Of a stretch of 64,000 nucleotides of DNA, positions 19,608 to 23,884 are shown piece after piece. Numbering within the stretch: position 1 is the first letter of the stretch; every line of letters begins with the position of its first letter. A program made the position numbers and the translations under genes. Below the pieces are notes generated by a model. It had not been told where the DNA came from. It made no database searches and saw only the letters and a list, made by a program, of their open reading frames with translations. The stretch is from a virus: positions 1 to 64,000 of IMG/VR virus record IMGVR_UViG_3300021957_000009; one strand, 5' to 3'.

Positions 19608-20198
19608 ATGGCAAGTTTATTCGACACATTACAAGCACAAGCATTCAGGGCTGGAGTCGCTCCTCGTACGAAGGACGCTCAGCAATGGTTTCAACGTAAC
19701 GTTAAGAAGTTGGGTGATGTAAATCGCCGAAGCCTTCTTAAAGATGACGCATTGGATGTAACCACTAAGCCGAAAGCAGGCGACATGCTTATGTATTTCT
19801 ATGATCCAAAGCATAAGGCAACACTACCATACTATGATAGATTCCCGCTTACAATCATGGTAGAACCTGCAGCAGGTGGATTCTATGGATTGAATCTACA
19901 TTACTTATCACCAGCGGTACGTGCAAGATTCCTTGATGAGCTAATGAAATTAGGCCCAAAGAACATGAATGACACTACACGTCTACAAAGAATGAGATAC
20001 AAAACACTCAAGGGTGTTACTAAATATAAAGAATTTAAGCCGTGTTTCAAGCATTACCTTATGAATCACGTAGAATCTAGGATGGTAAGAGTGCCTATGA
20101 CTGAATGGTCTATTGCAATCTTCTTACCAACAGAACAATTTAAGAACGTTAAAGCACAATCAGTGTGGAGATACTCAAGGAAACAATACGCATCATGA
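19608..20198 (+). CDS. Conserved T4-like morphogenesis protein, possible gp2 (DNA end protector)
   Basis: This 196-residue protein contains a block that I recognise from marine T4-like phages (MLMYFYDPKHKATLPYYDRF, then PLTIMVEP and GGFYGLNLHYLSP). In T4 the gene next to gp4 is gp2, which caps DNA ends in the head, and some relatives of this protein may be labelled so; the assignment here rests on position only. It ends in an ATGA overlap with the gp54-like gene. Confidence 0.6.
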   Translation: MASLFDTLQAQAFRAGVAPRTKDAQQWFQRNVKKLGDVNRRSLLKDDALDVTTKPKAGDMLMYFYDPKHKATLPYYDRFPLTIMVEPAAGGFYGLNLHYLSPAVRARFLDELMKLGPKNMNDTTRLQRMRYKTLKGVTKYKEFKPCFKHYLMNHVESRMVRVPMTEWSIAIFLPTEQFKNVKAQSVWRYSRKQYAS

Positions 20199-20857
20199 AC
20201 AGCATAGACAACCTTAAGGCAACAATTGCAAAGAAAGGTGGAGTTGCAATGCAAAACCGCTTTCAAGTATTCTTTACACCGCCTACTGCAAATAGTGTTA
20301 AGTCATTATTGAACTCAGATCCTAAAGTATTAGTAGGTGACATTGCAAAGAACGCTATATCAGGCGGTAGTATTAGGAATATGATACCTGATCCACGTGA
20401 TATATCAATACTATGTGAGGCGGTCAACCTGCCTGGTAGACAGATCACTACAATTGAATACACTGCTGAAAAGCAATCGATTAAGATACCTTATGGTGCT
20501 ATAAACGAAGATGTTACTATGTCTTTCATACTCACTAATGATTACTTCATGAAGAAACTATTTGATTCGTGGCAATCAGGTGTATTTGATATGGAAAGAT
20601 ATAGAGCAGGATATAAAAAAGATTTTACGACTGATATAATTATACAACAATTAAATCAGCAAAATATTCCGGTCTACGGTGTTAAGTTGGAGAATGCATT
20701 TCCAGTTACCGTAAGCTCGATAAATATGGATAATAACAGTGAAAACACTATCCAGAAACTGAATGTGACTTTGAGTTACGAAAACTTTGTGACCGAGGAC
20801 ATAGTAGATACGATTAAATCGACTGCTGGTGTCGTTGGTGCAACACTTGGTATTTAA
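20195..20857 (+). CDS. 54: gp54-like tail-tube initiator
   Basis: Starting at the ATG at 20195 (ATGA overlap with the previous stop), the protein has 220 residues and a tail-tube-like fold pattern: NRFQVFFTPP near the N-terminus, LCEAVNLPGRQITTIEY in the middle and VKLENAFPVTVSSINMD near the C-terminus, as in gp19/gp54-type proteins. Because it lies with baseplate genes and not beside a sheath gene, gp54 (initiator) is preferred over gp19 (tube). T4 gp54 is longer (320). Confidence 0.6.
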   Translation: MNSIDNLKATIAKKGGVAMQNRFQVFFTPPTANSVKSLLNSDPKVLVGDIAKNAISGGSIRNMIPDPRDISILCEAVNLPGRQITTIEYTAEKQSIKIPYGAINEDVTMSFILTNDYFMKKLFDSWQSGVFDMERYRAGYKKDFTTDIIIQQLNQQNIPVYGVKLENAFPVTVSSINMDNNSENTIQKLNVTLSYENFVTEDIVDTIKSTAGVVGATLGI

Positions 20858-20874
20858 TATAATAGGAGAATATA

Positions 20875-21582
20875 ATGGCTTTACCACAGCTAAATAATGC
20901 AAGATATGAGGTAACAATACCTTCAACAGGTCAAACGGTAACGTATAGACCATATCTAGTGAAAGAAGAAAAGATTTTAATGATGGCGATGGAGTCTAAT
21001 GATAGTAAAATGATCATGAAAGCTACAGGCGATGTTATTAAAGCATGTGTATATGAAGATATAGACGTAGATAAATTGGCGATGTTTGATGTTGAAACGT
21101 TGTTTTTAACACTAAGATCTAAATCAGTAGGCGAAAGCATTGATTTAAACATTAAATGTGATAAATGCGATTCAAGAAATGATGTACAAATAAGCTTTGA
21201 TGATATAAAACAACCAGTCGTTAATGATGAAAAACGTGTAATAATGGTAACTGACGATGTTGGAATCACCTTAAGATATCCATCATTTAAAGATGTTAGT
21301 TTAATTAAACCTGGCGATGATGAGTCAATTGAAGGTGCTATGAATTTAGTAGTGCAATGTATAGATAATATCTTTGATGACGATGGTGTATATGATGCAA
21401 AGAATGAAACAAAGAAAAGCTTAACTGATTTTGTAGAGTCTTTAAATAACGAACAGTTCATTAGGCTATCAGACTTCTTTCAGAGTTCTCCGTCATTATC
21501 ATACGATATGGAATTTAATTGTGTATCATGTAAAGAGCCGAATGTGCAGGAGCTTAGAGGTCTTCAAAGTTTTTTTACGTAG
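20875..21582 (+). CDS. 26: gp26-like baseplate hub assembly protein with four-Cys site
   Basis: This 235-residue protein fits the T4 gp26 baseplate family. It has two CxxC pairs (C95/C98 and C216/C219) that could bind zinc, and an acidic C-terminal half. A clear AGGAG precedes the ATG. The last codons run over the heptamer T TTT TTT at 21570-21576, two codons before the stop, and a -1 frame is open from there to 21767. This suggests that gp26 is also made as a longer fusion, as lambda G/GT is. Such proteins act as chaperones for the tape measure, which lies one gene downstream. Confidence 0.75.
   Translation: MALPQLNNARYEVTIPSTGQTVTYRPYLVKEEKILMMAMESNDSKMIMKATGDVIKACVYEDIDVDKLAMFDVETLFLTLRSKSVGESIDLNIKCDKCDSRNDVQISFDDIKQPVVNDEKRVIMVTDDVGITLRYPSFKDVSLIKPGDDESIEGAMNLVVQCIDNIFDDDGVYDAKNETKKSLTDFVESLNNEQFIRLSDFFQSSPSLSYDMEFNCVSCKEPNVQELRGLQSFFT
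21570..21576 (+). promoter_or_regulatory. Slippery heptamer for a probable -1 ribosomal frameshift
   Basis: In the gp26 frame the sequence is AGT TTT TTT ACG TAG, so the heptamer T TTT TTT fits the X XXY YYZ rule exactly. Both P- and A-site tRNAs re-pair after a one-base slip. The zero-frame stop follows after one codon. No convincing downstream pseudoknot was seen by eye. Confidence 0.6.
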
Positions 21583-21767
21583 GCCTCTCTCATGATAGCT
21601 TAGTTAATCACTATAAGACTAACTTTGCGATGATACAGCACCATAACTGGAGCTTAACAGAATTAGATCAGATGATGCCTTGGGAACGTGAGATATATGT
21701 TACTCTATTAGGCGAATGGATTAAAGAAGAAAATGAACGAATTAAGAAGGATCAAAGGAGACAATAA
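21576..21767 (+). CDS. -1 frameshift extension of gp26 (T-like domain)
   Basis: After slippage at 21576 the -1 frame encodes 63 residues starting YVGLSHDSLVNHYKTNFAM and ending in a charged helix (GEWIKEENERIKKDQ). The fusion would have 297 residues. The segment NWSLTELDQMMPWEREIY looks like the C-terminal part of tail assembly chaperone extensions. An internal ATG at 21621 could give a separate 48-residue protein, but protein-like sequence precedes it without a start codon or Shine-Dalgarno, which favours the fusion. The stop overlaps the next ATG (TAATG at 21765-21769). Confidence 0.6.
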   Translation, partial: YVGLSHDSLVNHYKTNFAMIQHHNWSLTELDQMMPWEREIYVTLLGEWIKEENERIKKDQRRQ

Positions 21768-22087
21768 TGTCTGAAGAAATTAAAAAGCTAGATCATCCCG
21801 CTGATACCAACGGTGATGGCAAAGTATCTGACGAAGAACATGATATGTATCTTGATGCAAAGCGTAAAGAGCTTGAAGATGCAGATGCAATGCGCGATGC
21901 TCAAAGAAATATGACATGGTTTGCATTGTTTGGATTAATACTATACCCATTTGCGGTAGTTGTAGCATCGCTTGTAGGGCTTGATGAAGCGGCCAAGACT
22001 TTAGGGTCCATGGCACCTACATATTTTGTTGCAGTTGCTGGTATTGTTGCAGCGTTCTTTGGCACTCAGGCAATGGGTAAAAAATAA
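21767..22087 (+). CDS. EF-hand membrane protein
   Basis: This 106-residue protein has a perfect 12-residue EF-hand loop at 13-24 (DTNGDGKVSDEE; Asp, Asn, Asp, Gly and final Glu all present), then a charged helix and two hydrophobic segments (about 50-68 and 82-100), so it should sit in a membrane with the calcium loop in front. It lies between the gp26 frameshift extension and the tape measure and is co-translated with the former. Possible roles are a virion-associated membrane protein that acts during DNA entry, or a holin-like protein. Function unknown. Confidence 0.7.
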   Translation: MSEEIKKLDHPADTNGDGKVSDEEHDMYLDAKRKELEDADAMRDAQRNMTWFALFGLILYPFAVVVASLVGLDEAAKTLGSMAPTYFVAVAGIVAAFFGTQAMGKK

Positions 22088-22096
22088 GGATAAGAC

Positions 22097-23884
22097 ATGG
22101 CAGAAGATAGCGGATTGACCCCAAATAGTTCTAATACACAAGAAAGAACACTCCTTGATGTTGTAAACGAGTTAAAAGAGCTTAACCAAGCTACGCAAGT
22201 CGCTCAAGACTCTGCAACATATACACAAGATCTAAGAGATTATGTCACAAGTCAAGGTGACAACCTATCTTCACGTCAATTAATGGCCATTAATGATCTC
22301 ATCTCTGCTATTAGTGATGGTGAATTAGATCAAATGGAAGCTGATAAAGAACGTATCAGAAGAAACGAAGATCGTAATGATCTATTAGAAAAGATTGCTA
22401 ATTCTACAAGTCTTAGTCTGGCTCAGTTGCAAGAAGAGTTTGGCGGTAAAGACCGTGGGTTTATTATGGGAGCTATTATTAATACGGCGATACGTGGTCT
22501 TCTCATTGGATTCTTTGCATCAGCATTCTTAGAACCATTTAAACTTATAGGGAAAGGTTTATCAGCAATTGGTACTAAAATTGGAAAGTTATTAGGTTTT
22601 ACGGGGTTCTTTAAAGGTTTAAAAGTAAGTATTCAAACTAATGTTACTAATGGATTTAAAGCATTTATGAATATATTTAAGTCAAAGGGAAATAAACCTC
22701 CTGGATTCTTAGCTAAAACTGCAATGGAACTCAAGAAAGTTTTAGTCGATACATTTAAAATTCTAACCACTGTAATTGGTAATGTTACTAAAGTGGGTGG
22801 AGCAGTTGCAGGTTTTCTTTCTGGAAGGTTTAAAGCATTAGAATCTTTGACTAAACTTAAGTTTAATTTTCCAGTAACCTCTAAATTAATGTCAGGTATT
22901 TCGAAAGGTCTTAATGCGTTTTTTAAACCATTAAATGGACTTAGGAAGTTGTTTAGTGGTCAAGCAAATGTTGTTGTTAAATCTATTGATCGCGCTGGTA
23001 AAGCTTTAGGATCTTCAAGTAAAGTTGTTGGTAGTTTAGGAACTTCAATAGTAAAATTCTTCGGTGCTTTAAAGCCAATAAAAACAGTATTTGGATTCTT
23101 ATCTAAACTTGGTAACGCGTTTAAAGGTGTAGGTAGAGTTCTTGGTAGATTCTTTGGAGTATTTAACTTTATATTTGGATTCTTTAAAGGATTTAAAAAA
23201 TATGAAGATGGGAGTTTTTTAACTAAAGTTTTTGCAGGTATTATGGGTGGCTTTAAACAAATGTTACTCATGGGTCCAGTATTTCTTCTTGATGGAATTA
23301 AATGGGTGTTAACTAAAATAACAGGAGCTCTTGGATTCGAAGGCCTTACTGATTTTTTAGAGAGTTTCTCATTCGCCGAGATTGTAGGTGGAGCATTTGA
23401 TTTTGTCACTGATACTATTATAAACTTCTTTGCACTTATAAGAGATACTATTGCTGATATAGGTATTGGTGGAATTGTAAAGAATATTGGTATTAATCTA
23501 TTAAAAGTATTTAAAAAGATTGCAATGTTTCCATCAGCCGTTGCTGCTGGTGGATTCGCTGCTCTTTCTGCTGCATTACCGGGTGGCGAAACACCAATGG
23601 AAGGATTTAAAAGAGGATTTAATGCAGTCTTTACAGCTGGAGATGCTGCTTTAGATAATCTTAAAGTAAAAGCTGATGGTATGACAGCATCTGGCGAAGA
23701 AATCAAATCAAAATCAGAAGAGAATGCAGCGGGACAAGCATCGCTCTCCTCAAAAGTTGCTGACGCAGGTGGTAACCTTGTCGATGCATCTAAAAATGCT
23801 GTTACTAACGTTGGTGAGACTATTATTAACACAGTAATGCCTCAAGACCGTACATCAGCTACGGTCGAAGGTCCATACGCATAA
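22097..23884 (+). CDS. 29: gp29-like tail tape-measure protein
   Basis: This 595-residue protein has nearly the size of T4 gp29 (590). The N-terminal 125 residues are acidic and helical. Residues about 130-480 are Gly/Lys/Phe-rich with several hydrophobic stretches (FIMGAIINTAIRGLLIGFF; IIKFFGVFNFIFGFF-like segments), and the C-terminus is Ala-rich. This is the common composition of tape-measure proteins, which set tail length and leave the tail during DNA entry. Its place after a frameshifted chaperone gene supports the call. It is the last gene of the plus-strand operon and ends three bases before a strong hairpin. Confidence 0.75.
   Translation: MAEDSGLTPNSSNTQERTLLDVVNELKELNQATQVAQDSATYTQDLRDYVTSQGDNLSSRQLMAINDLISAISDGELDQMEADKERIRRNEDRNDLLEKIANSTSLSLAQLQEEFGGKDRGFIMGAIINTAIRGLLIGFFASAFLEPFKLIGKGLSAIGTKIGKLLGFTGFFKGLKVSIQTNVTNGFKAFMNIFKSKGNKPPGFLAKTAMELKKVLVDTFKILTTVIGNVTKVGGAVAGFLSGRFKALESLTKLKFNFPVTSKLMSGISKGLNAFFKPLNGLRKLFSGQANVVVKSIDRAGKALGSSSKVVGSLGTSIVKFFGALKPIKTVFGFLSKLGNAFKGVGRVLGRFFGVFNFIFGFFKGFKKYEDGSFLTKVFAGIMGGFKQMLLMGPVFLLDGIKWVLTKITGALGFEGLTDFLESFSFAEIVGGAFDFVTDTIINFFALIRDTIADIGIGGIVKNIGINLLKVFKKIAMFPSAVAAGGFAALSAALPGGETPMEGFKRGFNAVFTAGDAALDNLKVKADGMTASGEEIKSKSEENAAGQASLSSKVADAGGNLVDASKNAVTNVGETIINTVMPQDRTSATVEGPYA

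Follow-up and report, generated by a model that had tools for sequence, protein, structure and literature searches.

Xu, Hendrix and Duda reportedly described frameshifted tail assembly chaperones in 2004, the lambda G/GT pair and others among them. Lambda slips at G GGA AAG, the E. coli dnaX gene carries a -1 frameshift cassette, and chaperone genes usually come after the tube gene. For T4-like phages, tail assembly chaperones have reportedly been identified by bioinformatics (Vladimirov, Gautam and Davidson, 2022, Virology 566:9), work that two later articles cite for poly-T slippery sites (PMC12846349; PMC10885494). Cyanophage-type gp51 has been described as having only about 20% of the length of T4 gp51, with the first ~200 residues absent, a difference whose cause is not named in the passages considered (Sullivan, 2010, PMC3037559).

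An earlier note on the DNA considered here had proposed that a lambda-like -1 frameshift extends gp26, and had added that such a mechanism was not known to be established for T4-type gp26. That remark is outdated in part, as poly-T slippage and the chaperone identity have reportedly been described already (Vladimirov, 2022, as cited in PMC12846349 and PMC10885494). Our literature search found no paper showing the fusion protein experimentally in T4-like phages. The mechanism is known in kind from earlier bioinformatics, and the locus described here adds another case.

A slippery heptamer at the end of gene 26

The window, as we call the whole stretch of DNA that was analysed, comprises 64,000 nucleotides and comes from a 101-kb virus record of a marine T4-like phage; all features located below are on its plus strand. 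Gene 26 (20875-21582) encodes a probable short tail assembly chaperone of 235 amino acids, which matches PF12322 (E 3.3e-57) and phrog_150 (E 6e-64) and for which AlphaFold returned a model with a pLDDT of 88.8. The gene ends, in its own frame, with AGT TTT TTT ACG TAG, so that the heptamer T TTT TTT (21570-21576) is followed by a single sense codon and then by the stop codon TAG (21580-21582), which confirms the heptamer seen in the earlier note. There are 111 in-frame heptamers of the form X XXY YYZ in the window's open reading frames on both strands, and this is the only one from which the -1 frame continues for at least 30 codons beyond the stop of the host frame.

The -1 extension (21576-21767) is open from the slip to a TAA at 21765-21767, giving 63 residues and a predicted gp26-51 fusion of 297 amino acids. 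Its first ATG (21630-21632), from which the 'gp51' genes of relatives are often annotated, has no Shine-Dalgarno (SD) sequence upstream of it in the window; the open frame of 63 residues and the missing SD had both been claimed before, and both were recovered here. The description of the extension as chaperone-like can be made more precise: its match to phrog_634 (E 1.4e-28) names it as the C-terminal domain of gp51, the 'baseplate hub assembly catalyst'. The nearest cultured relatives of this sequence are in cyanophage P-RSM6 and pelagiphage Mosig, at about 58-60% identity.

Gene 26 may lie between a tube gene and a tape-measure gene. Directly upstream is a gene for a gp19-like tail tube protein (20165-20857; PF06841, E 3.2e-7). 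The probable tape-measure gene (22097-23884; 595 amino acids) is assigned by its position and is weak by sequence, with a BLASTP E of 0.002 to part of the HTVC008M 'putative tail tape measure' and an E of 0.18 to phrog_1272. The tape measure had been said to follow the -1 frame, and a probable one is indeed found downstream, but as the second gene along, since an open reading frame of 106 amino acids with predicted membrane segments and weak matches only (21767-22087) intervenes. This extra gene departs from the lambda order, and we count it, together with the weak tape-measure assignment, against the reading of the locus that we favor. The 106-residue protein has a weak EF-hand-like motif, and an open reading frame of similar size occupies the same place in pelagiphages HTVC008M and Melnitz.

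Conservation of the site and its putative recoding signals

Related loci were gathered by similarity to the extension rather than to the heptamer, together with annotated phage genomes. This yielded 191 loci in which gp26 is followed by a -1 gp51 frame, or 54 after dereplication at 80% nucleotide identity. Every one of the 191 has an in-phase heptamer (T TTT TTT in 95, T TTT TTC in 94 and T TTT TTG in 2), which in 179 stands exactly one codon ahead of the stop, while of the 133 other Phe-Phe pairs in these loci just 4 are slippery T TTT TTY. Within the last 18 bases of gp26, no run but the six T is invariant. The earlier note had named relatives that lack the heptamer or have separate gene starts as its refutation, and the outcome is favorable to it: the heptamer is in phase throughout these loci, and it is missing from the T4-type phages with a separate full-length gp51 gene.

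The junction between the two frames takes other forms in some phages. At several loci (L090:2822, L098:2998, L102:2705, L093:1998 and L103:1998) the heptamer occurs together with a TAATG or TGATG stop/start overlap, which could allow the gp51 domain to be produced in fused as well as in free form. In Ackermannviridae (L099:2760-2990, L100:2770-3000, L198:1370-1560 and L199:1380-1570) a gp26 homologue is followed by a -1 gp51-like extension, with a junction of ATT TTC ATY TAA that holds no X XXY YYZ; as the heptamer is absent and two of these junctions read TAATG and two TAATT, reinitiation or another mechanism is likely in this group. The extension of Vibrio phages K364 and D528 (L101:2690-2910 and L200:1240-1460) comes after CTT TTT GCG TAA TG or CTT TTC AAG TAA TG, again with no canonical heptamer. 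Public cyanophage records (S-WAM1, L083:1504-1695; L084, L085, L086 and similar) either omit gp51 or begin it at an internal Met ~50 nt past the gp26 stop, so that conserved residues are lost.

Upstream of the heptamer, at a distance of 9 nt, the window has an SD-like AGAGG (21556-21560) that is probably a frameshift stimulator. Motifs of this kind occur 5-16 nt upstream of the heptamer at 35 of the 54 representative loci, compared with 6.3% of control windows. The AGAGG of the window is partly fixed by its Arg-Gly/Glu-Gly codons; in the cyanophage group, the Glu codon within the motif is GAG in 84% of cases against a usage of 29%.

Downstream of the heptamer, the RNA of the relatives proved more stable than synonymous-codon randomizations, with a mean z of -2.22 at 60 nt (two control regions gave -0.48 and -0.50) and of -2.76 at 120 nt; in the majority of sister lineages, significant RNA structure accompanies the SD-like motif. 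The window's own downstream structure was not significant against the synonymous null, with z of -0.24 at 60 nt and about +0.6 to +0.8 at 120 nt. Many marine cyanophages have a hairpin of 8-12 bp that begins 4-8 nt past the heptamer, as judged from counts of the named structure and from the synonymous-null z-scores. Within it, the third base of an Ala codon covaries with the opposite arm (U-A in 29, G-C in 15 and A-U in 8), by way of the compensatory codon pairs GCT/GAG, GCG/GCG and GCA/GTG, and the amino acid encoded by the opposite arm shifts in step between Glu, Ala and Val. RNAalifold predicted no common structure for an alignment of 65 cyanophage sequences, probably because some of the aligned lineages have other stems, and an Rfam search of the region gave no match.

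In the pelagiphage relatives of the window the candidate structure is instead a long-range stem, in which CCTCTC(T/G)CATG pairs with CGTGGGAGAGG about 90 nt further on; support for this stem is moderate, as the encoded peptides alone would give about 7.7 of the 11 pairs. In the window's sub-clade the Arg codon CGT replaces AGG, and a possible stem of 7 bp remains, with TCTCATG (21588-21594) and CGTGAGA (21687-21693) as its candidate 5' and 3' arms. The sequence GTA GGC CTC (21579-21587), just 3' of the heptamer, is conserved at the nucleotide level and would form the 5' arm of the long-range stem in sister lineages. Across 53 unique relatives it keeps GGC, a rare codon of 13% usage, in 100% and CTC, likewise rare with 5% usage, in 89%; it is nearly frozen even though the window's own stem is weak. 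We also considered a stem between the upstream AGAGG and a downstream CCTCT that would enclose the heptamer; it was rejected, as sequence variants break the pairing and it could hardly form with a ribosome on the site.

The recoding structures downstream of the heptamer may be new. Somewhat more tentatively, at slightly less than even odds, we suggest that the full cassette of SD-like motif, T-run heptamer and lineage-specific stem inside the gp51 domain has been rewired repeatedly: into a short covarying hairpin in marine cyanophages, into a long-range stem between the GLSH and PWER codons in pelagiphage relatives, to near loss in the window's sub-clade, where only T7 and the SD-like motif are kept, and, in the T4 lineage, into a second full-length gene. 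If true, this would constitute a natural series that leads from a protein ratio made by the ribosome to a ratio made by two genes.

Full-length gp51 in T4 and a chaperone-like fold

T4-type phages serve as a natural control for the proposed fusion. T4 genes 26 and 51 are separate, lie on opposite strands and are divergently transcribed (T4 locus L087:3803-5229; also L096 and L097). T4 gp51, of 249 amino acids, matches PF12322 over its first 200 residues (E 4e-52), phrog_150 over residues 3-248 and phrog_634 at its end, and in a four-sequence alignment it is colinear with the fusion predicted from the window. Since it matches both the gp26 family and phrog_634, T4 gp51 is the genome-encoded form of the fusion. 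For this comparison we relied on family models (Pfam, PHROG) and on the alignment of four sequences, as hhalign, run with the gp26 profile on T4 gp51 as a single sequence, aligned just 34 columns, out of register.

The gp26 gene ends without a heptamer in T4 (GAG TTC TTT) and RB49 (AGT TTC CTT), and Aeromonas phage ZHF has none either. T4, RB49 and the Aeromonas phage each encode a separate full-length gp51 that consists of a gp26-like protein and the same extension. A full-length gp51 gene is therefore present where the heptamer is absent, and T4 seems to have replaced the slip by this second gene.

A profile search with gp26 found no match by sequence among solved structures, and we therefore turned to a comparison of folds. 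For the N-terminal domain of the gp26 model (residues 1-87, about 90 residues), the best PDB matches found with VIA-align were 3fgx (Z 8.2), 2ob9 (Z 7.5), 3klu (Z 7.2) and 5ir0 (Z 5.2), with unrelated entries at 3.5 and below; these Z scores are moderate and apply to the N-domain only. Among the top matches, 2ob9 is the HK97 tail assembly chaperone, and we take 3fgx and 3klu to have the tail assembly chaperone fold as well. Foldseek gave no match to the model at E<=0.001. The chaperone-like fold and the nearby tube and probable tape-measure genes fit a pair of the lambda G/GT type, in which gp26 would most likely be the short member and gp26-51 the long one. The likeness to lambda G/GT that had been drawn from the window is supported by homology and by the conserved frame, as well as by synonymous constraint, the fold and synteny.

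Proposed mechanism and its alternatives

From this comparative evidence we consider it highly probable, at about 0.92, that programmed -1 frameshifting makes a gp26-gp51 long chaperone. Most ribosomes would end gp26 at the TAG at 21580. A minority, with a tRNA-Phe on each of the two TTT codons in the P and A sites, would slip back by one base at T TTT TTT, presumably stimulated by the SD-like motif, and would translate 63 further codons to give the 297-residue fusion. gp26 would then be the short chaperone and gp26-51 the long one, the equivalents of lambda G and GT; the gp26 part might coat the tape-measure protein, and tube or hub subunits might be recruited by the gp51 part. In E. coli T TTT TTT shifted less than A AAA AAG (PMC5009743), and the efficiency of frameshifting in the window may therefore be low.

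The gp51 domain might instead be made as a separate short protein, by reinitiation or coupling at the ATG at 21630 or, in relatives, where the stop and start codons overlap. Public records do annotate short gp51 genes, many of which begin at such an internal ATG, and KVP40, EniLVp02, phiM9, RL2RES and S-CRM01 have a TAATG overlap. However, the stretch of -1 frame that separates the heptamer from the first Met codes for protein and is conserved across all loci, with variation of the coding type (entropy 1.08, 0.82 and 1.49 at codon positions 1, 2 and 3). Besides the window, most relatives also lack an SD sequence: 46 of the 54 loci have no ATG, GTG or TTG bearing an SD-like motif ahead of the conserved core, and an ATG with such a motif is present in only 6. 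A separate gp51 would also leave the universal heptamer unexplained, as the TAATG phages keep it too, and would not account for the fused architecture contained in T4 gp51. We consider this explanation very unlikely.

Frameshifting on the ribosome also has to be told apart from effects of the T run itself. Transcriptional slippage could add a U to part of the mRNA and so open the -1 frame, and the length of the run, seven T in the window and eight in HTVC008M and Melnitz, would suit it. Yet half of the loci have just T6 and then C, and one cyanophage group has TTC as its second Phe codon in 69 of 69 although TTC usage there is 21%, which speaks against transcriptional slippage and against a simple effect of the T run. 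A strict codon phase, an SD-like element and stems downstream, as described above, are typical of slippage on the ribosome, and transcriptional slippage seems to us more improbable still. As homopolymers are generally error-prone, one could finally suppose that the run has been assembled at the wrong length and gp26-51 is a single in-frame gene, or that the heptamer is there by chance and is not used. The same relation of frames in 191 loci, isolate genomes included and many with T6C rather than T7, makes such an error or coincidence scarcely credible.

Programmed frameshifting offers a reason for the short gp51 of cyanophages and their marine relatives, as the missing part would be gp26 itself, joined by the frameshift. 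By implication, the gp51 of many public records is truncated and started at the wrong place, or is absent, and two T4 baseplate proteins that are poorly understood gain support as a short/long chaperone pair. A protein pair that some phages make by frameshifting and T4 makes from two genes would present a testable case of recoding giving way to gene duplication.

Compared with lambda G/GT (summarized in PMC5009743), the locus likewise has a probable short chaperone gene that follows a gp19-like tube gene and precedes a probable tape measure, a predicted -1 slip at its 3' end that would add a downstream domain, and a chaperone-like fold in the short form; it differs in its T TTT TTT, in an extension that is a gp51 domain, and in the one extra gene ahead of the probable tape measure. 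Like the E. coli dnaX cassette (PMC5009743), it has an SD-like element about 10 nt upstream and a heptamer, with a stem several nt downstream in sister lineages, whereas the window's heptamer is T-based, no clear stem follows it, and the product would be extended, not shortened. The chaperone of Pakpunavirus and Vandenendeviridae, with its GTTTTT motif (PMC12846349), shares a conserved poly-T slip and a -1 extension that annotations routinely list as a hypothetical gene of its own; these are other phage families, and the likeness is drawn from slip motif and annotation. Further counterparts are gp26 and gp51 of the T4-like phages, to whose families the window's proteins belong, but where T4 has two genes on opposite strands, the window has one gene and a predicted frameshift.
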